Assembly: GCA_023663085.1 (NCBI GenBank)
Contig: JAMPIB010000035.1
Coordinates: 1-40,291, forward strand
Source of the DNA: Ruminococcus sp.
Lineage (GTDB): Bacteria > Bacillota > Clostridia > Lachnospirales > Lachnospiraceae
Direction: 5' to 3'
Length of the DNA: 40,291 nt
Shown one piece after another: positions 25,202 to 36,707 of the stretch. The notes below the pieces were generated by a model. The model saw only the letters and a list, made by a program, of their open reading frames with translations. It was not told where the DNA came from and searched no databases. The position numbers and the translations under genes are program-made. Position 1 is the stretch's first letter; the number at the start of each line of letters is the position of its first letter.

Positions 25202-27343
25202 TTATGGCGCTTCTGTCTGCGCCCCGCCTGGCTGCTCCGGCAGTTCGGCCGAGAGGATAACGACCGTCCGCGGCGGCACCTTAAGCGTACTCTTATAATG
25301 AAATTCCGTAAGCGCCTCTACATCCTTTCCATCTTCATAAGGCACGAAAGTATTGACGCACACTTTCCACTTCCAGCCTTCCGGCAGCCCCGGCAGCTGC
25401 ATATTGACAGCCTCCCAGTAAGCGTTCATACAATAAAAGATGATATCGTCTTTCGTATTCTCTTCATCCCGGCCCGCATACATGATGCCGATCAGGCGGC
25501 TGTTATAATCCGTTCCGCTGTTCCATGGATACCCGTTATGGATACTGATACCCGGAAAACCGCAGGAGGCAGACGGCGTCATCTTCCGCAGAATAACATG
25601 TTTCTTCCGGAAAGCTATCATATAGCGGAAAAAGTCATGTATCTCCCGGTAGGTATCAAGCCTGTTCCAGTCCAGCCAGGAAATGATATTGTCCTGACAA
25701 TAGGCATTATTATTGCCAAACTGTGTATTACAGAACTCGTCGCCGGCATAGAACATGGCCGCCCCCCTGCTGCACATCAGCGTCGCGAACGCATTTTTTA
25801 CCATCCGGCGGCGCAGCGCTTCTATCTCAGGGTCATCTGTTTCGCCCTCCACGCCGCAGTTCCAACTGTTGCCGTTATTATCGCCGTCCGTATTGTTCCA
25901 GCCGTTTTTCTCGTTATGCTTCATGTTATAAGAATACAGGTCATATAGCGTAAACCCGTCGTGACAGGTCAGGAAATTGACGGAGGCGTCTTTTCCTCTG
26001 GTGATCGGGTCGTACATATCGCTGGAACCGGTGATCCTGGTGATCGCCGTGGCCGCCATATCGGCATCTCCTTTTAAGAAACGCCGCATATCGTCGCGGT
26101 ATCTTCCGTTCCATTCCGACCATCTGTTAAAAGAAGGAAAATTCCCCACCTGATAGAGTCCGCCCGCATCCCAGGCTTCGGCGATCAGCTTGACCTTGCC
26201 TAAGATAGAATCGCAGGCTATCGCATGTAAGATAGGCGGTTCCGCCATAGGCGCGCCGTACTGGTCTCTGGAAAGAATGGAGGCTAAGTCAAAGCGGAAA
26301 CCATCCACACGGTATTCCGTTACCCAGAAACGCAGACAGTCGATGATAAATCTGCGGGTCGTGGGATGATTACAGTTCAGTACATTGCCACAGCCGCTGA
26401 AATTATAATAATGCCCGCCCGGCGTCAGAATATAATAAATGTTATTATCAATCCCTTTAAAAGAAAAGCAGGGGCCGTCCTCGTTTCCCTCCGCGGTATG
26501 GTTAAATACCACATCCAGAATAACTTCTATGCCGTTTTCCTTTAACTCATAAATAAGCTGTTTTAACTCATCGCCTTCATGATTATGCTCCACTACGGAA
26601 GTATAGCTCGTATTCGGTGCAAAAAAACAGACCGTATTATATCCCCAGTAATTATAAAGCTGCTCTCCGTCAACAACTCTGGCGCTCTCCATCTCATCAA
26701 ACTCAAAGACCGGCATCAGTTCTACGGCATTGATGCCCAGATCTTTTAAATAAGGAATCTTCTGACGCAGACCCTCGTAAGTTCCCTTCGCCGTCACCCC
26801 GGAAGATTCGTCCTTGGTAAAACCTCGAACGTGCATCTCATAAATAATAAGATCCTCCACCGGATGTTCCAACTGTTTCACTTTGCCCCAGTCAAAGTTA
26901 TTTTCTACCACTCTGGCATGATAAACAAAGCCGTCTCCATCCGGTCTGTCTCCCCATTCTTTCTGGCCCGTGACCGCTCTGGCATAGGGGTCTAAAAGGA
27001 CGTTATCTTTATTGAACAACAGGCCCTTTTCCTTATCATATGGCCCATCGAGCTGAAAAGCATATTCAAATTCCTCAATATTTAAGTCAAACACCAGCAT
27101 GGAATACGTATTCCCGATATGATACGATTCCGGAAATTTTAACCGCGCATACGGTTCCTTTTCCCGTGGTCTGAATAAAAGCAGCGTACAGCTTGTGGCG
27201 CCGAAAGAATGAATCGTAAAACTGACACCGCTTGGCGAGACCGCCGCCCCGTCTCTGTTATAAAAACCCGGACGGACTTTAAAGCCGTCTATGATATCCA
27301 GAGGCTGTAATCTTTCCCCTCTTTTCGTTTTCCTTAATGCCAT
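25202..27343 (-). CDS. glgX: Glycogen debranching enzyme, GlgX/isoamylase type
   Basis: A 713-residue GH13 enzyme that cleaves alpha-1,6 branches of glycogen; cytoplasmic. An N-terminal CBM48-like domain (GVSFTIHSFGATSCTLLLF) is followed by the catalytic barrel: ILDVVFNHTAEGN, VDGFRFDLAS (nucleophile Asp 352), LIAEAWDAGG (acid Glu 389) and NFLTCHDGFT (Asp 462). All catalytic residues are present. The chosen ATG (MALRKTKRG) has AAGGAG 11 bases upstream; the earlier ATG of the open frame has its ribosome site too close. It lies 65 bases after the receiver-alarmone synthetase gene with no evident terminator between, so it may be part of the signalling transcript. Confidence 0.93.
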   Translation of the reverse strand: MALRKTKRGERLQPLDIIDGFKVRPGFYNRDGAAVSPSGVSFTIHSFGATSCTLLLFRPREKEPYARLKFPESYHIGNTYSMLVFDLNIEEFEYAFQLDGPYDKEKGLLFNKDNVLLDPYARAVTGQKEWGDRPDGDGFVYHARVVENNFDWGKVKQLEHPVEDLIIYEMHVRGFTKDESSGVTAKGTYEGLRQKIPYLKDLGINAVELMPVFEFDEMESARVVDGEQLYNYWGYNTVCFFAPNTSYTSVVEHNHEGDELKQLIYELKENGIEVILDVVFNHTAEGNEDGPCFSFKGIDNNIYYILTPGGHYYNFSGCGNVLNCNHPTTRRFIIDCLRFWVTEYRVDGFRFDLASILSRDQYGAPMAEPPILHAIACDSILGKVKLIAEAWDAGGLYQVGNFPSFNRWSEWNGRYRDDMRRFLKGDADMAATAITRITGSSDMYDPITRGKDASVNFLTCHDGFTLYDLYSYNMKHNEKNGWNNTDGDNNGNSWNCGVEGETDDPEIEALRRRMVKNAFATLMCSRGAAMFYAGDEFCNTQFGNNNAYCQDNIISWLDWNRLDTYREIHDFFRYMIAFRKKHVILRKMTPSASCGFPGISIHNGYPWNSGTDYNSRLIGIMYAGRDEENTKDDIIFYCMNAYWEAVNMQLPGLPEGWKWKVCVNTFVPYEDGKDVEALTEFHYKSTLKVPPRTVVILSAELPEQPGGAQTEAP

Positions 27344-27408
27344 AATAAAATACTCTCCTTTCCGCCTTATTCTTCCTGTCTTATCCATTCCACCTTACTC
27401 TTTCTGCC

Positions 27409-28482
27409 TTATTCTTTATGACTGTCAATTTTGTTGCGGATATCCTGCATCTGATAATCCAGTGTCTCGATAGATTCCGCACATGCCTTTAATTGTTCGA
27501 CGATCTCCTGCGCATCGCCAAGATTTTTCTTATATTTCAGTTTATGTTCCAGACTTGCCCAGAAATCCATGGCAATCGTCCGGAACTGTACCTCGACCTT
27601 GCGGTACTTTTTCTCATGCGACAAAAAAATGGGTATGCTGATGATAAGATGAAGACTCCGATAACCGTTCGATTTCGGATGCTTGATATAATCCTTTTCT
27701 TTCAAAAGGATTATATCGTCCTGTTTGACTAACAGTTTCGCCAGACGGTAAATATCGTCCGGAAAAGAACAGATGACACGGATCCCCGCCACATCATTCA
27801 GACATTCTTCAATATTATGTACCGTCACCGGATACCCCTTCCGCTCCAGTTTCTCATAAATGCTTTCCGCTGACTTTAATCTGCTCTTGATAGATTCAAA
27901 AGGATTTCTGTTATATTCCTGTGAAAATTCCTCGTTCAATACATTTAATTTCGTTTCCACTTCCATGATGGCACAGTGATACTGCATCATCAGATTATGG
28001 AAAGCGCCTGCTTCTTTTAATTTCTCCGCCTGCATCTGAATGATACGGGACTGTTTCTTTAACTCTTTGGTCTGTCTTTTTACTTTCTGCTCCAACTGGT
28101 TCCTGCCGGCAAAAAGTTCCACGGTATTTTTCACCCTGTTCTTAACGATAGAAGCCTCAAACGGTTTATGGATAAAATCCGAAACGCCCAGACAGAAACA
28201 CTTGTTTTCGATATCCACATCCTTTTCGCTGCTGATGATGAGTACGGGTATCCTGTTTAACCACCCGTTTTGTCTGATCTGCGCAATCACGCCGAAGCCA
28301 TCCATTCCGGGCATCTGTAAGTCCAGAAGGAGCGCGGCGGTTTCTTCTACATGCTGCTGCAGTTTCCGCAGAGCCTCTTCCCCGTCCCCCGCCGTATCCA
28401 CAATATATTCGTCTTCCAGTATCTCACGCAGCAATTCGCGGTTCACTTCCGCATCATCCACCACTAATATCCTGCTTCGCAT
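27409..28482 (-). CDS. Response-regulator receiver fused to a RelQ-like (p)ppGpp synthetase
   Basis: A 357-residue two-domain protein. Residues about 4-120 are a receiver: VVDDAEVN acidic pocket, phosphoacceptor Asp 54 in LLLDLQMPGMDG, Ser in LIISSEKD, Lys in HKPFE. A coiled-coil-like linker follows (about 128-160). Residues about 165-330 match small alarmone synthetases: SRLKSAESIYEKLERKG (ATP-binding basic patch), NDVAGIRVIC (Asp 230), KDYIKHPKSNGYRSLHL (GTP-binding loop), VEVQFRTIAMDFWASLEH (Glu 297) and HKLKYK. No hydrolase (HD) domain is present. It should make (p)ppGpp under control of phosphorylation. I chose the ATG with GGGGGA 8 bases upstream; the open frame begins at a TTG 13 codons earlier. 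A weak extended -10 (TGCTAGAAT, 28523-28528) may give extra internal transcription. Confidence 0.92.
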   Translation of the reverse strand: MRSRILVVDDAEVNRELLREILEDEYIVDTAGDGEEALRKLQQHVEETAALLLDLQMPGMDGFGVIAQIRQNGWLNRIPVLIISSEKDVDIENKCFCLGVSDFIHKPFEASIVKNRVKNTVELFAGRNQLEQKVKRQTKELKKQSRIIQMQAEKLKEAGAFHNLMMQYHCAIMEVETKLNVLNEEFSQEYNRNPFESIKSRLKSAESIYEKLERKGYPVTVHNIEECLNDVAGIRVICSFPDDIYRLAKLLVKQDDIILLKEKDYIKHPKSNGYRSLHLIISIPIFLSHEKKYRKVEVQFRTIAMDFWASLEHKLKYKKNLGDAQEIVEQLKACAESIETLDYQMQDIRNKIDSHKE

Positions 28483-28567
28483 TTGTAATTCCCCCGCGGT
28501 TTCTCTGTCCGTATCTGTCAATATTCTAGCACAAAATATTTACAGTTACTATACATGGAAACTTTTT

Positions 28568-31267
28568 TTACACTTTTTTTCTGATAAACATCAGGCCGAA
28601 TACGCCTACGCCGCAGTTACTGGAAACGGTGGCCGAAGCCTTCTGCGTGATAATTTTTTCAAACTTCACGTATTTAGCCGCCTCATCGAGTATCTCTTCC
28701 AGCTGGCTGACCGTACAGCCTGCATAGGTAAGAAACAGGATACGTGGATCGATCTGCTTACTGTGGCGCAGCAGTTTTCTGACATATCTGCGTCTTACGC
28801 GCTTCATATTTCCCGCTTCTATTTTCCAGAGTTTCAATTCATTCTGCGACATATGAAGAACCGGATGCAGGTTCAGAGAGTCGCAGAGCCTGTGAACAGG
28901 CCCGCTCACTTTGCCGTTACGGAACAGAGCCTCCGTACTCGGTACGAGGAAGTTTGAACATACCTGCACTTTAAACTGCTCTAAACTCTCGCAGATCTCT
29001 TTTACGCTTTTACCCTCTTCCGCCAGCATGGCCGCATGCAGAACCATAAGACCATGCCCGCTGCTGATATGCGACGAATCAAAGACAGTAACGTTATCAA
29101 AGCTTTTGCTGGCCTGCAGCGCATAAGGATACGCGCCGCTGAGCGCAGTCGTAGCGGTAATATGGAGGACGTGCTCCGCCGACTCTAAAGTATCCGCAAA
29201 GAAATACTCATATTTAGACGGTTCCGCCGTGGAAGAATGCGCATAATTGCCCTCTATCTGTAAGTATTTGAGCAGACTGTCGGAAGAAACTTCAAACAGA
29301 TCGCAGAAACGCCCTTCTTTCGTATGGACATAACAATACATCAGACGTATCTGGTACCTTTCCAGAAACTCCTTGGGCAGATCGCATATACAATCCGCGG
29401 TAATAGCCACTTTCCGCTTTCTGGCACCGGTAATCTGGCTGACAGCGCCTTCCTGCTCCGGATCTACCTTATTTTCATCCGCAGAATACTCGATGACCTC
29501 CGGCGGCAGATATTTTAACAGGCCGGCCTCTAATAATGCCGCGTTGATCGGTTTGGCCAGATAACCGTCGAAGCCCATATCCTGATACACCTGTTCCGCA
29601 TTGCTCATGACGTTGGCTGTCAGGGCAATAATGGGCACCTTCTGGCAAAATCCCCTGGTCTGGGCACGTACAGCCTTTAATGTAGCCTCACCATCCATAT
29701 CCGGCATCATATGATCCATTAAAATAATATGATAAGAATTCTCAGCCGTCAGCCGCAAACATTCCCTGCCGCTCTCCGCCGTATCAATTTTAATCTTCGT
29801 ACCCCGAAGCAGCTTCGCCGCCACCATACGGTTCATCTCGTTATCATCAACTACCAGGATCCGGGCATCCGGCGCCGTAAAACTCTGTTTGTATTTAGCC
29901 CGCTTGTTCATCTGTTTCTGCGCCGCAAAATTGATGATACCGATAGGCTGCGCATTGACGATCCGCTGTCTGATCTCCACCGAGAACGTAGAACCTTTAT
30001 GGTATACGCTGTCTACAAAAATAGAGCCTCCCATCATCTCCGCCAGTTGTTTGGAAATAGTAAGTCCGAGTCCGGTACCTTCAATGTTCCGGTTCTCTGT
30101 CTCATCTACACGCTTAAAGGACTGGAACAGATCGTCCAGGCTTTCTTTGCGGATACCCATACCGGTATCCGCCACAGAAATTGTCAGGATGATTTCATCC
30201 GCACCGACACGTTCGCCCTTGGCCGATAAGGTAACAGAACCTGCCTCTGTATATTTTACGGCATTCGTCAGCATATTGGTGACAATCTGCTTGATACGCA
30301 CTTCGTCGCCATAGAGCATGGACGGGATATCATGGTCGATATCCACTTTAAATTCCAGTTCTTTCTGATGCGCACGGATCCAGATCAGATTGACAAGATC
30401 GCTGAACATGGCGCTGACTTCATACTGCGCCGGCACGATCTCCATCTTGCCGGACTCTAATTTCGATAAGTCCAGAATATCGTTGATCGTCGTTAAAAGC
30501 ATCTTGCTGGCGTTCTGGATATTGATGGCGTTCTCCGCTATTTCGTCAGAGATATCCTCCCGCAGCGTCATCTCGTTAAGGCCGATGATGGTATTGATGG
30601 GTGTACGGATCTCATGACTCATGTTGGCAAAAAAAGTATCTTTGGAGCGCGCGATCTGCTCGATCTCTTTCCTCTGTTCCTCCGCCAGTTTTCTTTCGTT
30701 ATCGTATGTAAAAAACTGTACTTTTAATAAAAAGCCGATAAAGCAGCTCACCACGATGGTCGTGACATAAGAATCGCCATAACTGTAAAAGCGGCTGGCC
30801 GCTTCAGGCAGGATATCCGGATAGTGATAGGCTATCGAATAAGTTGCCAGAAAAGAGAGCATGGAAATAATGAGCGCAATGAAAAACTCTTTTCCTTTAA
30901 ATAAAACAAAAATATAGACAAGTCCCAGCACGAGCCAGACCGGCGTACCACTGTCCATACCGCCGCTCATGAAAAAAATAAGCGGGAAAAGGATCAGGTT
31001 CGAAGTCAGTACTAACAACCAGGAAGCCAGTTTTTCTTTACGGTATTTTACACAGATAAATAGGGCTATCCCTGCGATCACACACATTGGTATCAGAGCT
31101 GCCAGAACTGTCGGCGTCACTCCCAGCATAACGCGCCCCATACCTATTATAGAAGCGGCAAATGCCAGCAGCAGTACGATGCGGATGAGTCTCTCATGGA
31201 AATCCAGCTTTTCATTTAAGATATTATATAGATAATCACGTATTTTTTTTATCATAACCGTATACAC
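28568..31267 (-). CDS. Membrane hybrid histidine kinase with receiver and C-terminal DegV domain
   Basis: 899 residues. The N-terminal 185 residues hold about six membrane helices and short loops, a 6TM-type sensor. Then come HisKA (FFANMSHEIRTPIN, His 218), the HATPase (NMLTNAVKYT; VADTGMGI; EGTGLGLTISKQLAEMMGG), a receiver (DD 474-475, Asp 518 in LMDHMMPDMDG, Thr 550, Lys 572), and residues about 618-899 that match DegV/FakB fatty-acid-binding proteins: ITADCICDLPKEF, STAEPS (TSQPS in DegV), TTALSGAYPYA, VFDSSHISSGHGLMVLHAA and SNCGVGVFGLMF (HxGPGxxG in DegV). No HPt domain. The frame opens with GTG; an ATG four codons later is an alternative start. It lies 16 bases after the HPt kinase gene. 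Confidence 0.92.
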   Translation of the reverse strand: MYTVMIKKIRDYLYNILNEKLDFHERLIRIVLLLAFAASIIGMGRVMLGVTPTVLAALIPMCVIAGIALFICVKYRKEKLASWLLVLTSNLILFPLIFFMSGGMDSGTPVWLVLGLVYIFVLFKGKEFFIALIISMLSFLATYSIAYHYPDILPEAASRFYSYGDSYVTTIVVSCFIGFLLKVQFFTYDNERKLAEEQRKEIEQIARSKDTFFANMSHEIRTPINTIIGLNEMTLREDISDEIAENAINIQNASKMLLTTINDILDLSKLESGKMEIVPAQYEVSAMFSDLVNLIWIRAHQKELEFKVDIDHDIPSMLYGDEVRIKQIVTNMLTNAVKYTEAGSVTLSAKGERVGADEIILTISVADTGMGIRKESLDDLFQSFKRVDETENRNIEGTGLGLTISKQLAEMMGGSIFVDSVYHKGSTFSVEIRQRIVNAQPIGIINFAAQKQMNKRAKYKQSFTAPDARILVVDDNEMNRMVAAKLLRGTKIKIDTAESGRECLRLTAENSYHIILMDHMMPDMDGEATLKAVRAQTRGFCQKVPIIALTANVMSNAEQVYQDMGFDGYLAKPINAALLEAGLLKYLPPEVIEYSADENKVDPEQEGAVSQITGARKRKVAITADCICDLPKEFLERYQIRLMYCYVHTKEGRFCDLFEVSSDSLLKYLQIEGNYAHSSTAEPSKYEYFFADTLESAEHVLHITATTALSGAYPYALQASKSFDNVTVFDSSHISSGHGLMVLHAAMLAEEGKSVKEICESLEQFKVQVCSNFLVPSTEALFRNGKVSGPVHRLCDSLNLHPVLHMSQNELKLWKIEAGNMKRVRRRYVRKLLRHSKQIDPRILFLTYAGCTVSQLEEILDEAAKYVKFEKIITQKASATVSSNCGVGVFGLMFIRKKV

Positions 31268-31283
31268 CCAGCCTTTCCCACTC

Positions 31284-34253
31284 TCACATCGTGCCCTTTG
31301 CGATTTTTTCTTCCCAGGAACCTAATACTTCACCCGCGCCGAGGAAATCAAAATCATCGACTTTTACCTTGATCTCATTTACCATATCCGTAAGATCGAG
31401 TTCCTGATATCGGCACCCTTTTAACTGCTCTAAAATCCCATCCAGTCCGTCGCTTTCAAAGCTGTCCAGTTTGGCCCTAAGGAATGTCAGACGCTCTTTT
31501 AAAACAGCTTCGTCAGCAGCGCCTGCTGCTTCTGTTCCCCCGCTTTCGCTGCTTTCTGCTGCCATTTCAACATTTCCTTCCGCCCCGTTTCCATCTGGTA
31601 CGTCAGTCTGCGCCGCAGTCTTTTCTTCTTTCTCTCCTTCATATCCATCGGGATAAAGAAACGTATTACGTGCAAAGGCTGTAAGCAGCGCATTGTGTTT
31701 CTCCATCAGTTCCTCGTGGTGATCCAGAATATATTCGATACGGTTTTCTTTTCCTGCCATCTCCAGATTCAGTGCCAGTTCAGCCAGTTCGTTGGCACCA
31801 ATACCCTTGGAATTGCTCTTTAAGGCATGTACGGTGATGACATAATTTTTCCAGTCCTGCTCTTTTACGAACTGTTCCAGCTGCTCGTTTCGTCTGGCGC
31901 CTTCCGCATGATAGATCGTAATGATCTCCCGCAGGCCCTCTTGATCGCCGCAGTAAGAAATGCCCTGCTCGATATTGATACCTGCATCCCTTAAGGCATC
32001 AAGCGCTTCTGCTTCGGTCTCTTTTTTACCTGCAGCCGGAATCTTATCCCGGCCATCAGCCGCCGCCGTCTGCGCAGCCCCTGCGCTTGCACCGTCATTT
32101 TGCCATGCTGTGACAGCGTTCGCCTTACCCTTATCCGTACTCTCTTTCAGAGAATTTTCTGTGGTATCCTCCATATCTTCTTCCACACTGATCTGTTTCT
32201 GCACCGGGATATAACGGCGCAGCATGCGCTCTAAGACGCTTAACTCAATGGGCTTGGCAATAAAATCGGTAAAGCCTTCATCCATGAACATCTCCCTGGC
32301 TCCGCCGATGGCATTGGCCGTAAAGGCAATGACCGAGAGCGCCTGAAAATAGGACCCGGGTTTCTGGCGTATCTTATGCAGCGTCTCCACACCATCCATT
32401 TCCGGCATCATATGGTCTAAGAATACGCAGTCGTATTCCATGCCATCCAGTTTATCAAGAGCCTCCTGCCCGCCGCTGGCCATCGATACTTTAATCTGAT
32501 ATGGCAGGAGCAGTCTGGCCATGACTTTTAAGTTCATGGCATTATCATCCACTACCAGCACTTTGGCGTCAGGCGCGATGAAACGATGACGCAGGTCAAG
32601 ATGCTGTTCGCCCCTTTGCAGGACTTTCTGTCCGTTAAATACCGCAGCGATGGACAATACCGTAAACGGCTTATAGATGCGCAGCATATTGCTGCCTATC
32701 TGCGTCTCCTGCCCGTAATCAAGGATGAGCACGACCGTCAGTTCTTTGGCCAGTTGTTCAAAGAAATTCCTGTCTTCGCAGTATTCTTCCCAACTGATAA
32801 AAATATGGGAATAGTTTTCATGGTCTATACGGCGCTTTAATTCCGGCAGATTCTTACAGATCCTGAACATGATGCCGAACTGCTCCGCGATATGGCGGAT
32901 GCAGCGCTCATATCCTTCCCGCACCACGGTATAATTATATTTATCCATATTGATATAACAGGCCGCGAATAAGTGGCTCTTGTTTTTGATAGACACGATA
33001 GGCGTCTCGTCCAGTACCTTCTGGGGAATGGTGAACTGGAAAGTCGTTCCGCGATCCGGCATACTCTCGACCGTGATAAAACCGCCCATATTCTGTACGA
33101 GGGCCTGTGTAATGGCCAGTCCTAAACCGATACCGCCCTCCTCCCTGTTGCGTCTGGAATTAAGCTGGCCGAAACTGGTGAAGATCTTCTCCATATCCGC
33201 CTGACTCATACCGATACCGGAATCTTTGATACTGACTAAAAGATTGATGCCGTATTCTTCTTTCCTGCTCTTGATGCGCAGGACGATACCGCCCTCTTTG
33301 GTAAATTTAATGGCATTTTCCAAAAGATTCATCACGATACGGCGCAGCTTCTGTTCATCTCCCAAGAGATTACTCGGCAGGTCGGCATCACAGTCTACAA
33401 TGAGTTCCAGATGCTTTCCATTCTCCATAGTCAGCGCCATATTGATGATATCCGTAATGGTGGAAGTGATATTATAACTTTCTTCCGCCAACTCCATCTT
33501 ACCACTTTCCAGTTCCGAGAAATCCAGAATGTTACTGACCGTGGAAAGAAGGTTGCGTCCTGCCGTCTGGATATCAATGACGTCCCGCCTTACATCTACC
33601 GGCAGATTTTCCTGTAAGATGGCCTCGCTCATACCGCAGACCGCATTGATGGGCGTGCGGATCTCATGAGAAATATTGACCATAAAATCGTCTTTACTCT
33701 GTTCAACTATTTCCAATTCATGGATGTTTTCTATCAATTTCTCGCTCGTCTCCTGCCTGATGCGTATGGTGATCCAGGTCACAAGTGAAATGGCATAGGC
33801 GGAAAGAACATGCAAAAGCATACGGATGATATCATTGGCGGTCTGCACGGATATCGTCTGAGAAACAAACCCGTGATACAAAAAGATCAGCGTCGTCATG
33901 ATAACGCCCAGATACACGATATCCTCGCTGCAGAATATACCAAGCAGCGCGATCAGGGCCAACATCGTAGAGAGCATGGAAGTAAAACTCTGCGAATACA
34001 CAGCATAGACCGCAAAGTTGATCCAGGAGACGGCTGCCAGAAATTTAGCCCGGAATCCATAATCACGGTATTTTTTCAGATGAATGACCCAGGCGGCAAT
34101 GATCGTCGCGACAATAATTTCCCTGGCGATCAGATTCCATGCCAGCAGATACGAAGAAAGCAGCATGGCCAGTGAAAAAAGCGTGAATATGCCAAGTACG
34201 ATCTGCTCTAACTTTTTATTTGTCTTATCATTCCTAAATTGCTTCTCTTCCAA
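31284..34253 (-). CDS. Membrane hybrid histidine kinase: HisKA-HATPase-pseudoREC-REC-HPt
   Basis: 989 residues. About six membrane helices (20-165), HisKA (MVNISHEIRTPINAV, His 196), HATPase (NLLENAIKFT; IKDSGIGMS; GGIGLGLAITQALVQNMGG), then a degenerate receiver-like region (about 425-545) that lacks the phospho-Asp but keeps a YKPF motif. A true receiver follows (VVDDNAMN 567-574; Asp 613 in FLDHMMPEMDG; Lys 667). After a low-complexity linker comes an HPt domain with His 809 in TVHALKSNSKGIG. A Ser/Ala/Glu linker and a final helical segment of about 70 residues with no clear family close the protein. It starts with TTG behind GGAGGAAAGG, which may lower its translation. It is the only protein in the window with an HPt. 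Confidence 0.92.
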   Translation of the reverse strand: MEEKQFRNDKTNKKLEQIVLGIFTLFSLAMLLSSYLLAWNLIAREIIVATIIAAWVIHLKKYRDYGFRAKFLAAVSWINFAVYAVYSQSFTSMLSTMLALIALLGIFCSEDIVYLGVIMTTLIFLYHGFVSQTISVQTANDIIRMLLHVLSAYAISLVTWITIRIRQETSEKLIENIHELEIVEQSKDDFMVNISHEIRTPINAVCGMSEAILQENLPVDVRRDVIDIQTAGRNLLSTVSNILDFSELESGKMELAEESYNITSTITDIINMALTMENGKHLELIVDCDADLPSNLLGDEQKLRRIVMNLLENAIKFTKEGGIVLRIKSRKEEYGINLLVSIKDSGIGMSQADMEKIFTSFGQLNSRRNREEGGIGLGLAITQALVQNMGGFITVESMPDRGTTFQFTIPQKVLDETPIVSIKNKSHLFAACYINMDKYNYTVVREGYERCIRHIAEQFGIMFRICKNLPELKRRIDHENYSHIFISWEEYCEDRNFFEQLAKELTVVLILDYGQETQIGSNMLRIYKPFTVLSIAAVFNGQKVLQRGEQHLDLRHRFIAPDAKVLVVDDNAMNLKVMARLLLPYQIKVSMASGGQEALDKLDGMEYDCVFLDHMMPEMDGVETLHKIRQKPGSYFQALSVIAFTANAIGGAREMFMDEGFTDFIAKPIELSVLERMLRRYIPVQKQISVEEDMEDTTENSLKESTDKGKANAVTAWQNDGASAGAAQTAAADGRDKIPAAGKKETEAEALDALRDAGINIEQGISYCGDQEGLREIITIYHAEGARRNEQLEQFVKEQDWKNYVITVHALKSNSKGIGANELAELALNLEMAGKENRIEYILDHHEELMEKHNALLTAFARNTFLYPDGYEGEKEEKTAAQTDVPDGNGAEGNVEMAAESSESGGTEAAGAADEAVLKERLTFLRAKLDSFESDGLDGILEQLKGCRYQELDLTDMVNEIKVKVDDFDFLGAGEVLGSWEEKIAKGTM

Positions 34254-34288
34254 GGTAAATTACCGTTCCTTTCCTCCGTACTGTCCAC

Positions 34289-35368
34289 TCATTCGATACC
34301 AAGCTGTTCTTTTAACAGCGGTAACATCTCCATGAACACGTCGATAATGACCGGGTCAAACTGCGTTCCCCTGCCTTCCGACATGATCTGCATGATCCGT
34401 TCGATGGGACGGATCGGCGGTTTATAAACACGCTCTTCATACAAAGCGTCAAATACATCCGCCACCGACATGATACGCGCCGCCAACGGTATACTGTCGC
34501 CTGCCAGTCCCGTAGGATACCCCGTGCCATCCCAGCGCTCATGATGATACATGGCGATATCTTCCACGATCCGCACATAATGTTCATCTTCCACATCCCC
34601 GATAATCGTCTGGATGATCTTACGACTGTATGTGGTATGCAGTTTCATGGCGTCAAATTCTTCCGGCGTCAGTTTGCCGGGTTTTTGCAGGATGGAATCC
34701 GGCACTTTGATCTTACCCACATCATGTAAAGGGGCTGCCTTGCACAAATCCTGTATGTAGCCGTCCGTCAGTTCCACCGGAAAAAGATTTCGTCTATGTA
34801 ATTCACTGGCTATCATCCTCACATAAGTCTGCGTATTTTTTACATGCTTGCCGGTACTGCCATCCCTGCTCTCGATCAGATTCGCCATACCGATGATGAC
34901 GGAATCCTGGATCATGCTGATGCGTCTGGCATTTTCGGTGATCTTATCAGCCTGCTCTTTTACCATATTTTCCAGGTTGTTACGATACTGCTCCAGTTCT
35001 ATCGTTTTCGCCACGCGGCTGAGCAGGATATCCGGTACGAACGGCTTGGCCACGTAGTCCATGGCTCCCACCTGAAAACATCTGACTTCTGTTTCCGCCA
35101 GATTATCCGCCGTTAAAAAAATAACGGGTATCGACTTCGTCGCCTCCTGCTGACGCAGCTTCTCCATCACTTCAAACCCATCCATTTCGGGCATATTAAT
35201 ATCTAATAAAATAAGATCGGGCCGGTTATTTTCCAGATATTTTAACGCCGCCATACCTGAATTAGAAGCCGCTATCCGGTAGTACGGCAGAAGGATCTTC
35301 TGCGCCAGCGTTAAATTGGTCTTATCATCATCCACGACCAGAATAATATTTTTTGTAGTAACATCCAT
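34289..35368 (-). CDS. Response regulator with HD-GYP c-di-GMP phosphodiesterase domain
   Basis: 359 residues, RpfG-like. The receiver (about 7-122) has VVDDDKTN, phosphoacceptor Asp 56 in LLDINMPEMDG, Thr in FLTAD and Lys in AKPF. The output domain has HDVGKIKVPD (His 215, Asp 216), the HHERWDGTGYPTGL motif (GYP 283-285) and ADVFDALYEERVYKP. All metal ligands I can place are present, so it should hydrolyse c-di-GMP when phosphorylated. It is the first gene of the four-gene signalling operon, about 50 bases after a promoter, and is followed after 35 bases by the HPt kinase. The ribosome site is AAAGG 11 bases before the ATG. Confidence 0.94.
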   Translation of the reverse strand: MDVTTKNIILVVDDDKTNLTLAQKILLPYYRIAASNSGMAALKYLENNRPDLILLDINMPEMDGFEVMEKLRQQEATKSIPVIFLTADNLAETEVRCFQVGAMDYVAKPFVPDILLSRVAKTIELEQYRNNLENMVKEQADKITENARRISMIQDSVIIGMANLIESRDGSTGKHVKNTQTYVRMIASELHRRNLFPVELTDGYIQDLCKAAPLHDVGKIKVPDSILQKPGKLTPEEFDAMKLHTTYSRKIIQTIIGDVEDEHYVRIVEDIAMYHHERWDGTGYPTGLAGDSIPLAARIMSVADVFDALYEERVYKPPIRPIERIMQIMSEGRGTQFDPVIIDVFMEMLPLLKEQLGIE

Positions 35369-35424
35369 GTAACATCATGCCTTTCTTACACCGGACTTTG
35401 TCCTGTGCCCTTTTATCCCAAGAT

Positions 35425-35454
35425 ATTATATCAATAAAGTGCATGTTTTGGCAA
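35425..35454 (-). promoter_or_regulatory. Promoter of the four-gene signalling operon
   Basis: Minus-strand TTGCCA (35449-35454) and a perfect TATAAT (35425-35430) with 18 bases between. The leader to the first ATG is about 50 bases and holds a small GGAC/GTCC hairpin. I see no comparably strong promoter inside the operon. Confidence 0.7.
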
Positions 35455-35547: not shown

Positions 35548-36057
35548 TCAGATATGATCTTCGGCAAACTTTATCACAGAAATGACGGGCATGATCAGTA
35601 TCCCGCAGAAAAAATTGCTGATGCCGTGAATACAGTCCCACGGCAGCCCCGCAATGATCCAGGCGATCATTCCCCGAAAACTTAAGCCATATAAAACCGC
35701 CTGTGCCGGTGCATACAGGGTTCCGAACAGGAACCCGTGCGCCGCGCAAAGCAGCATATATACAAGAGGCTGCGCTTTTTTCGGCATATTCTTCGGCAGT
35801 AACATGACCGCTCCCCAAAGAAGCGTCCATACATACAGATAAGGAATCCACCATGTCGCAAATCCGCTGAAAATCCCATTTAAGAGCACATAAATGTAGA
35901 TTGGATACAGCGCCTTCTTACGATATACGACCGTAAAGGCGATCGTAAATACGCCGAGCAAATGGATATTGGGTGCGATCTCCATAATGACCTTCGAGGC
36001 ATACATGACCGCTCCCAGCATGGAAAAAACAACGATTTCTTTTGTTGTGACTTTCAT
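35548..36057 (-). CDS. ECF transporter S component
   Basis: A 169-residue membrane protein with five to six helices (IVVFSMLGAVMYASKVIMEI; HLLGVFTIAFTVVYRKKALY; LYVWTLLWGAVMLLP; MLLCAAHGFLFGTLYAPAQA; IISNFFCGILIMPVI-like end). The LGAVMYASKVIMEIAPNIHLLGVF start is typical of S components of energy-coupling-factor vitamin importers. The ATPases and T component are not here and would be shared. The adjacent DUF4430 lipoprotein suggests a corrinoid or similar ligand. The ATG chosen has AAAGG 12 bases upstream; an in-frame ATG four codons earlier abuts the ribosome site. Confidence 0.8.
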   Translation of the reverse strand: MKVTTKEIVVFSMLGAVMYASKVIMEIAPNIHLLGVFTIAFTVVYRKKALYPIYIYVLLNGIFSGFATWWIPYLYVWTLLWGAVMLLPKNMPKKAQPLVYMLLCAAHGFLFGTLYAPAQAVLYGLSFRGMIAWIIAGLPWDCIHGISNFFCGILIMPVISVIKFAEDHI

Positions 36058-36098
36058 ATTGATAACCATGCCTTTCTCTCAACCTGCAATTTTTCAAT

Positions 36099-36620
36099 CT
36101 ATTCGACCTTAAAGGTATAGTCTGCTCCTGCTGTGACGGCCGTTGAATCCACACCGGTCTGCGCGTATTCGCCATTGATATAAAATGCCCAGTAAGTGCC
36201 ATCTGTATCATAATCCGCCGTAATACCGTTCACCGTCTTGACATACAACCCGTATTCACTTTCGTCTCCCACGATCAGACCAAGTTCCAGAAGCGCCTCG
36301 CCTACAGTCTCTTTATCCGTATGAATGGTGAAAGCGGTCTCATTGCCGTCCTTGTCCACGACCGTAAAGGCAAATTCGCTGCTGCCCTCACCTAACTGCG
36401 TGCTGTCTTCAGCACTTGAAGTATCCTCCGCCTGCGAAGCGTCGGCTGTCTGCGTTGTCTGCGCAGCGTTTTCCTGCGGCATATCAGATGACTGCGATGA
36501 ATCCGTACCGTTGCCGCATGCGTTCGTAAAAAGCGCTATTACAATCAGCAGCATGACACAGAGTGCGTATGATAACCTTTTTTTATTTTTTATGATATTC
36601 TTTTTATATTTTGTTTCCAT
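36099..36620 (-). CDS. DUF4430-domain lipoprotein
   Basis: 173 residues. A lipoprotein signal peptide (KKRLSYALCVMLLIVIALFTNAC, lipid-modified Cys after TNA) is followed by a Ser/Asp/Ala/Gln-rich linker and a DUF4430 domain (FTVVDKDGNETAFTIHTDKE; TVGEALLELGLIVG; YGLYVKTVNGITADYDTDGTYWAFYINGEYAQTGVDS). DUF4430 resembles the C-terminal domain of transcobalamin and intrinsic factor. Paired with the S component 41 bases downstream it may catch a corrinoid at the cell surface; the ligand is inference. The start ATG has AAAGGAGAGG upstream, and a good promoter lies 60-85 bases ahead. Confidence 0.85.
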   Translation of the reverse strand: METKYKKNIIKNKKRLSYALCVMLLIVIALFTNACGNGTDSSQSSDMPQENAAQTTQTADASQAEDTSSAEDSTQLGEGSSEFAFTVVDKDGNETAFTIHTDKETVGEALLELGLIVGDESEYGLYVKTVNGITADYDTDGTYWAFYINGEYAQTGVDSTAVTAGADYTFKVE

Positions 36621-36678
36621 GTTCAGACCTCTCCTTTGCAAAATATTGGCGCCTGTTTTGCCAAACAGACTATTTTTT

Positions 36679-36707
36679 ATCATAATCTTTTATCCAGACT
36701 TCGTCAA
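36679..36707 (-). promoter_or_regulatory. Promoter of the DUF4430-ECF pair
   Basis: Minus-strand TTGACG (36702-36707) and TATGAT (36679-36684) with 17 bases between. The divergent superoxide dismutase gene starts 59 bases away, leaving no room for a cobalamin riboswitch. Confidence 0.65.

Follow-up and report, generated by a model that had tools for sequence, protein, structure and literature searches.

The RpfC/RpfG proteins of the diffusible signal factor (DSF) system in Xanthomonas form the closest described system to the gene cluster analyzed here, which lies in a 40,291-nucleotide stretch of DNA from Ruminococcus sp. (contig JAMPIB010000035.1; hereafter, the window) and encodes a receiver (REC)-HD-GYP response regulator, two membrane hybrid kinases (K2 and K3), and a REC-(p)ppGpp synthetase fusion. 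Xanthomonas belongs to a different phylum. In published work (PMC5391125), RpfC, a kinase with REC and histidine phosphotransfer (HPt) domains, and RpfG, an HD-GYP protein that hydrolyses cyclic di-GMP (c-di-GMP), respond to a fatty acid. The window likewise combines a membrane hybrid kinase carrying REC and HPt with an adjacent REC-HD-GYP regulator; the likeness is by architecture only, and the window adds a second hybrid kinase that ends in a DegV domain and, in K2, a further stretch between kinase and REC. We consider it rather probable that the genes at 34289-35368, 31284-34253, and 28568-31267 together encode a single conserved phosphorelay of RpfC/RpfG type with a doubled input, and that the fourth gene was inherited separately.

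Two other described systems share part of this arrangement. The Roc system of Pseudomonas aeruginosa was described (PMC12051241) as a branched network of two histidine kinases and three response regulators. A branched two-kinase network is what it would have in common with the window, whereas the proteins are different. To our knowledge, the Roc system includes neither a DegV domain nor a synthetase. In Mycobacterium smegmatis, a dual-domain small alarmone synthetase (SAS), fused to another domain, was described (PMC7591505). Both that protein and the window's fourth protein are fusions, the partner in the window being a receiver. The partner domain in M. smegmatis is presumably RNase HII. No description of a DegV-ended histidine kinase or of a receiver-(p)ppGpp synthetase fusion was found among the papers listed from the open-licence PubMed Central literature, which was covered mostly as titles and abstract openings and outside which most subscription literature lies.

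The cluster and its domains were located as follows:

34289..35368, minus strand: REC-HD-GYP response regulator (359 aa; Pfam REC and HD above the curated cut-offs)
31284..34253, minus strand: K2, membrane hybrid kinase (989 aa; Pfam HisKA, HATPase, REC, and HPt)
32619..32981, minus strand: putative pseudo-receiver of K2 (residues 425-545, KPF-type motif)
31737..31928, minus strand: HPt domain of K2 (Pfam stretch residues 776-839, His809)
28568..31267, minus strand: K3, membrane hybrid kinase (899 aa; Pfam HisKA, HATPase, REC, and DegV)
28580..29413, minus strand: DegV domain of K3 (Pfam 148.5 bits; Asn884 at the position of the FakB pocket His)
27409..28482, minus strand: REC-long helix-RelP/YwaC-type (p)ppGpp synthetase (357 aa from the ATG at 28482; Pfam REC and RelA_SpoT, PDB matches)

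The four open reading frames (ORFs) were found where the original prediction had placed them, with the domains it named above the Pfam cut-offs and with catalytic and phospho-acceptor residues intact. The HPt of K2 barely passed (25.6 bits, cut-off 24.6). Comparison of the middle region of K2 with the REC of the same protein (hhalign, E-value 0.021, probability 2%) did not confirm the predicted pseudo-receiver, although a KPF-type motif was visible in that region. A hydrophobic N-terminus was clear in both kinases (Kyte-Doolittle, overlapping windows); the six helices that the original prediction gave to K3 are putative. The predicted gaps of 35, 16, and about 85 bases were borne out, the first two for the longest ORFs and the third (85 bases) with the synthetase start at ATG 28482, which homologues favoured over the longest ORF (27409-28521, 370 aa). 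Homologues of K3 (e.g., L161) start at a Met matching an internal ATG of the window's K3, and with that start the second gap would be 28 bases.

The two kinases were conserved as a pair. Genomes were compared in three sets, 77 from the genus, a family sample of 397, and a class sample of 391; many of these genomes are incomplete, which makes absences approximate, and the genus and family relay loci were chosen from K3 match lists and represent a selection of matches. A K3 homologue at 67-78% identity was present in 47 of the 77 genus genomes (the window counted, a few being fragments). Matches to K3 were obtained in 68 of the 397 family genomes at 1e-160, two of them without DegV coverage, and in 9 of the 391 class genomes at 1e-150, six from the same family and three from one genus of another family. 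K2 and K3 were adjacent in 97 of the 102 loci read; the other five (L195, L210, L239, L246, L255) end at contig edges and were excluded from pair counts. K2 lay upstream of K3 in all 41 genus loci assessed. Phospho-sites and ATPase motifs were nearly invariant in the kinase alignments, with His196 and Asp613 of K2 in 61/61 homologues, HPt His809 in 58/61 (the remaining three being gaps), and His218 and Asp518 of K3 in 62/62, and the phospho-His, phospho-Asp, and HPt His of a hybrid phosphorelay were all present in the window. The window's genome also holds a second REC-HD-GYP/K2/K3 module (L158, G000:C88:33000-51000), its K3 44% identical and the module lying beside a GH94-type gene. In L161, an OmpR-type regulator/kinase pair lies on one side of the relay and ABC/FtsX transporter genes on the other (Pfam, this locus only), and L162-L164 and L169 have a similar layout.

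The distribution of the HPt was informative about how the kinases may be connected. A hidden Markov model (HMM) built from the HPts found was applied to the K2 proteins matching the middle region (96; L244, whose K2 carries an HPt, is thus outside this census), and 81 of the 96 carried an HPt. The domain was missing from 14 K2, and in all 14 cases the partner K3 had a C-terminal HPt after DegV; in L266, K2 was split, with REC-HPt on the next ORF. No pair in which both K2 and K3 bore an HPt was found among these 96 K2 proteins with the HPt HMM. In these pairs, the HPt was found on K2 or on K3 and not on both, which favours the view that one HPt probably serves both kinases, as the original prediction had proposed; no other evidence speaks as strongly for that proposal. 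Relocation of the K2 HPt as the origin of the K3 HPt was considered and rejected, as the HPt tree does not show this.

The REC-HD-GYP gene was the constant neighbour of the pair in the genus. An HD-GYP domain was linked to K2-K3 in all 41 genus loci assessed, 5' of K2; in L193, it forms the end of a hybrid kinase. The HD (215-216) and GYP (283-285) motifs of the window's protein are intact, as would be expected of an HD-GYP phosphodiesterase. Among 53 aligned upstream regulators, phospho-Asp56 was present in all 53 and the GYP Gly in 46, with a gap in five. A c-di-GMP enzyme (HD-GYP, GGDEF, or EAL) was encoded within two genes in 64/97 K2-K3 loci (Pfam check on four). On the strength of this conservation, a link of the DegV-kinase relay to c-di-GMP is well supported. 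Two other arrangements recurred. CheW and MCP (methyl-accepting chemotaxis protein) genes were followed by K2-K3 in L203, L205, L209, L215, L251, L252, and L263, and L203 also has CheA (Pfam). A regulator of 251-339 aa, whose receiver starts at residues 131-145, was found in L213, L214, L231, L232, L233, L236, L241, and L248, and its N-terminal part had no Pfam match in L213, the one scanned.

The DegV domain of K3 matched FakB and other DegV structures (21 PDB sequences), and it shares the family of the FakB/DegV fatty-acid-binding proteins. It differs from them in being fused to a kinase and in the residues of the pocket, which we take to be Thr61, Ser93, and His266 of FakB, with positions assigned from the alignment. 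The pocket Thr and Ser were retained in the window, whereas the His was replaced by Asn; across 103 DegV kinases, this position was Asn in 97 and His in 2, and the Ser93-equivalent, like the Thr61-equivalent, varied. By comparison, three of the four stand-alone DegV proteins of the window's genome have His at the pocket position. Because the pocket His is Asn in 97/103, the fatty-acid-binding label given to K3 in the prediction was not supported as it stood; a lipid-type ligand is plausible. Tandem DegV kinases occurred in L196 and L257, and in each of these loci one of the two has the pocket His instead of the Asn of most other K3.

The fourth protein was assigned to a type other than the one first proposed. 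It had been called RelQ-like; among PDB sequences, the synthetase domain scored 184.7 bits against 6ewz, which we take to be RelP, 179.3 bits against YwaC, and 127.4 bits against RelQ/YjbM, and the NCBIfam YjbM model gave 168.2 bits, under its cut-off of 320. The RelQ-like assignment was therefore rejected. The domain resembles the RelP/YwaC small alarmone synthetases in its score range (179-185 bits) and its catalytic residues, and the window's protein differs by adding an N-terminal receiver on a long helix. Asp243 and Glu310 of the synthetase and Asp67 of the receiver (370-aa ORF numbering) were present in 62/62 homologues, rows with identical C-termini having been removed from the alignment. 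An AlphaFold2 model (359 residues, 34 sequences; mean predicted local distance difference test score 89.4, predicted template modelling score (pTM) 0.63) contained a receiver-like N-terminal part of alternating strands and helices, a long helix (112-159), and the synthetase part, and because of the pTM of 0.63 the placement of the receiver relative to the synthetase part is uncertain. In a small tree, the synthetase domain grouped with stand-alone synthetases of the same bacteria, its exact placement being unsettled. A synthetase encoded on its own and sharing 54-60% identity with the fused domain was listed for 45/77 genus genomes (15/24 with the fusion and 30/53 without, i.e., no association); the fusion genomes without a listed stand-alone synthetase were G000, G015, G032, G035, G036, G037, G039, G056, and G063.

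Three further features accompany the cluster:

35425..35454, minus strand: promoter-like site TTGCCA-18-TATAAT with TG before the second hexamer, the top match of the promoter scan
28523..28531, minus strand: extended -10 element TGCTAGAAT, whose TAGAAT begins 46 bases ahead of the synthetase ATG
25202..27388, minus strand: glgX-like debranching enzyme gene (Pfam Alpha-amylase and CBM_48)

The REC-synthetase fusion was distributed independently of the relay. It was found in 24/77 genus genomes (E < 1e-150) and in 13/397 family genomes (14 matches at 1e-90; G424 covers residues 166-367 only), and in the class sample of 391, at 1e-60, the window's match alone includes the receiver. Based on the 1e-150 fusion list and the K3 match list of the 77 genus genomes, the relay was present in 15 of the 24 genomes with the fusion and in 32 of the 53 without (Fisher p = 1), and the proposal that synthetase presence tracks the relay was rejected. 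Nine of the 24 fusion genomes thus lack the relay. In six of them (G042, G051, G061, G062, G074, G076), no K2 match was obtained at 1e-120, and the best K3 matches (1e-107 to 1e-112) were far below those of full-length DegV kinases and were taken for kinases without DegV. Gene order told a similar story. Besides the window, 20 regions of the 24 genus genomes were read (G015, G053, and G057 were left out), and the relay lay beside the gene in G056 only; among 40 GTDB loci with receiver and synthetase parts, of which L046, L051, L054, L060, and L065 have fewer than 500 bases upstream, it adjoined the gene in L035 only, which is the same G056 region (also L138). A 41st locus, L072, was incomplete and was left out. 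The neighbourhood comparison therefore found the three-gene core clearly conserved, and the four-gene set kept narrowly, in one relative beside the window (2/97 K2-K3 loci), and a widely conserved four-gene operon was rejected. In MAGs (metagenome-assembled genomes) titled Bacteroidales (L039) and Gastranaerophilales (L059), possibly mislabelled bins, the REC-synthetase was 70-73% identical to the window's.

The surroundings of the fusion suggested how the four genes may have come together. Elsewhere, the gene occupies varied places, often between genes resembling comEC and holA (names by eye). In the window, glgX lies 20 bases 3' of the synthetase on the same strand, possibly on its transcript, and the two adjoined in five genomes (window, G056, G063, G035, G037), in three of which the relay was absent there. 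The relay adjoined glgX with no synthetase between in G039, G032, and G015, and a glgX-like gene was found 3' of K3 in the more distant L244. The K3 proteins of the window and G056 are 75% identical, and the K3 tree does not place them as sisters (forks 96/92, 97/94); the K2 and HD-GYP trees did not settle the relationship. A simple reading would be that relay and glgX were clustered of old, that the synthetase joined this cluster, and that losses followed. A change of the receiver surface on joining the operon was rejected, as the conserved first-helix positions were unaltered in relay-linked copies and, when 57 copies without a link to the relay or (by labels) to glgX were taken as reference, the positions conserved in at least 80% of them that differed in one or both linked copies were only 15, 46, 77, 103, 110, and 113, all outside the first helix. 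In L058, the fusion has a dCache hybrid kinase 51 bases downstream, and in L056 a PAS hybrid kinase 376 bases upstream, and so it may work with different kinases from one lineage to another.

Transcription signals gave evidence on both sides of a four-gene transcript. The single promoter predicted at 35425-35454 was the best scan match, and an element of the same TTGCCA-18-TATAAT type precedes HD-GYP in the relative with the same operon (L035/L138); among the loci listed, the window and L138 had this pattern, and 5/36 others had weak matches unrelated to it. On the other hand, promoter-like sites were no more frequent in the scan than by chance (23 vs 22.0 ± 4.2 expected). The extended -10 element before the synthetase occurs at an equal distance (46) in L035, with similar elements in L140 and L141, and after removal of identical upstream regions it was present in 15/56 distinct REC-synthetase upstream regions vs 1.6 ± 1.2 in 200 letter shuffles. 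No terminator-like match was found within the gaps themselves on the minus strand in the window scan; a weak one of 5 pairs lies at the end of K3 (28608-28592), just before the 85-base gap. Short gaps and a conserved upstream promoter-like site would thus favour a four-gene transcript, vs the extended -10 element and the weak terminator-like match. Upstream of the cluster and on the same strand lie a gene for a small membrane-like protein without a Pfam match (35548-36069) and a DUF4430 gene (36099-36683).

Under the reading we prefer, K2 and K3 would hand phosphate through their own receivers to the single HPt of K2, which would phosphorylate REC-HD-GYP and thereby change c-di-GMP breakdown, while the C-terminal DegV of K3, with its altered FakB-like pocket, would be the likely ligand sensor. 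The fourth gene, judged from its domains, would encode a (p)ppGpp synthetase of the RelP/YwaC type, controlled by the receiver fused to it. It would have been inherited separately, with a promoter-like element of its own, between K3 and glgX in this lineage, and would possibly be fed by the same HPt here, its usual kinase lying elsewhere or being variable. Several observations weigh against parts of this reading. The HPts of 15 K3 cluster with those of other hybrid kinases rather than with K2's (a tree of few columns, bootstrap unsettled), and so the switch from K2 to K3 may be a single event; the K2 HPt of L248 scores low (21.3 bits), with another HPt gene after K3, and further HPt-bearing kinases lie near several K2-K3 pairs. 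The HD residue His215 was kept in only 40 of the 53 regulators (Cys in 7, Gly in 1, absent in 5). In the wider family, a c-di-GMP enzyme was encoded within two genes in just 23/56 loci and HD-GYP in just 13/56, with MCP or CheW in 9; the remaining c-di-GMP enzymes there were REC-GGDEF or REC/EAL/GGDEF proteins, and other loci had a receiver-only gene. The Thr61-equivalent was Thr in 33/103 and Ser in 20/103 K3. The extended -10 element was found in no more than 15/56 upstream regions, with plain letter shuffles as the control. Finally, a K2-K3 heterodimer would give much the same picture even if no HPt were shared. In such an arrangement, K3 would regulate K2, the K3 receiver acting as a brake or phosphate sink without feeding the HPt. 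K2 and K3 are both membrane hybrid kinases of similar layout with genes side by side, and regulation between paired kinases is known from RetS-GacS. However, the phospho-His and receiver Asp of K3 are invariant (62/62), and absence of the K2 HPt coincides with a K3 HPt in 14/14 pairs with an unsplit K2; we regard the heterodimer as improbable.

The original prediction went further than the shared relay, proposing that both kinases pass phosphate to the one HPt, from which it would reach HD-GYP as well as the synthetase and thereby set c-di-GMP and (p)ppGpp jointly. The first output was supported by HD-GYP as the constant neighbour in the genus loci read. The gene order shared by the window and G056, despite K3 proteins that are 75% identical and not sisters, would agree with the second output as well, as would the intact receiver residues, the upstream promoter-like element common to both, and the minus-strand gaps free of terminator-like matches. 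Against this, the arrangement is confined to 2/97 loci, 9/24 fusion genomes have no relay and six apparently no K2 or K3 at all, presence is uncorrelated, the conserved first-helix positions are the same when linked, the synthetase has a promoter-like element of its own, and K3 ends in a weak terminator-like match. The membership of the synthetase in the relay was for most of these reasons not supported as stated, and we judge the full model unlikely; relay control of the synthetase is possible. For the fourth gene alone, and compatibly with the relay model, the synthetase may instead be an orphan regulator that is no relay target and is tied, if anything, to glgX and carbohydrate storage. It adjoins glgX in five genomes, three without the relay there, its presence is independent of the relay, and its promoter-like element is its own, and we hold this to be a real possibility, if short of probable. 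Against it, glgX follows K3 directly in three genus genomes that have the synthetase elsewhere, so that a grouping of relay and glgX may have come first in this region, and no glgX was found beside the gene in the 39 other GTDB loci and L142-L157, some of which reach contig ends.

The preferred reading of a three-gene relay with a separately inherited synthetase bears on signaling in the family. The relay is conserved and belongs to a recognisable kind, to which it adds a new input part. In its widest form, the proposal is that one HPt and two kinases, one reading a lipid-like ligand through DegV, drive both HD-GYP and the synthetase, and that receiver-gated RelP-type synthetases give two-component signaling direct control of (p)ppGpp in many Lachnospiraceae; taken as a whole, this is doubtful. 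For two species, the dual-messenger claim is itself a reasonable hypothesis, and the evidence points both ways. The DegV-ended kinase beside an HPt kinase and the receiver-synthetase are conserved architectures, not freak fusions. The DegV-kinase pair points to a c-di-GMP pathway of the RpfC/RpfG type in Lachnospiraceae, whose input may be lipid-like. Of more general reach is the receiver-gated alarmone synthetase itself; if it is gated as proposed, phosphorelays would switch alarmone synthesis directly, not via transcription.

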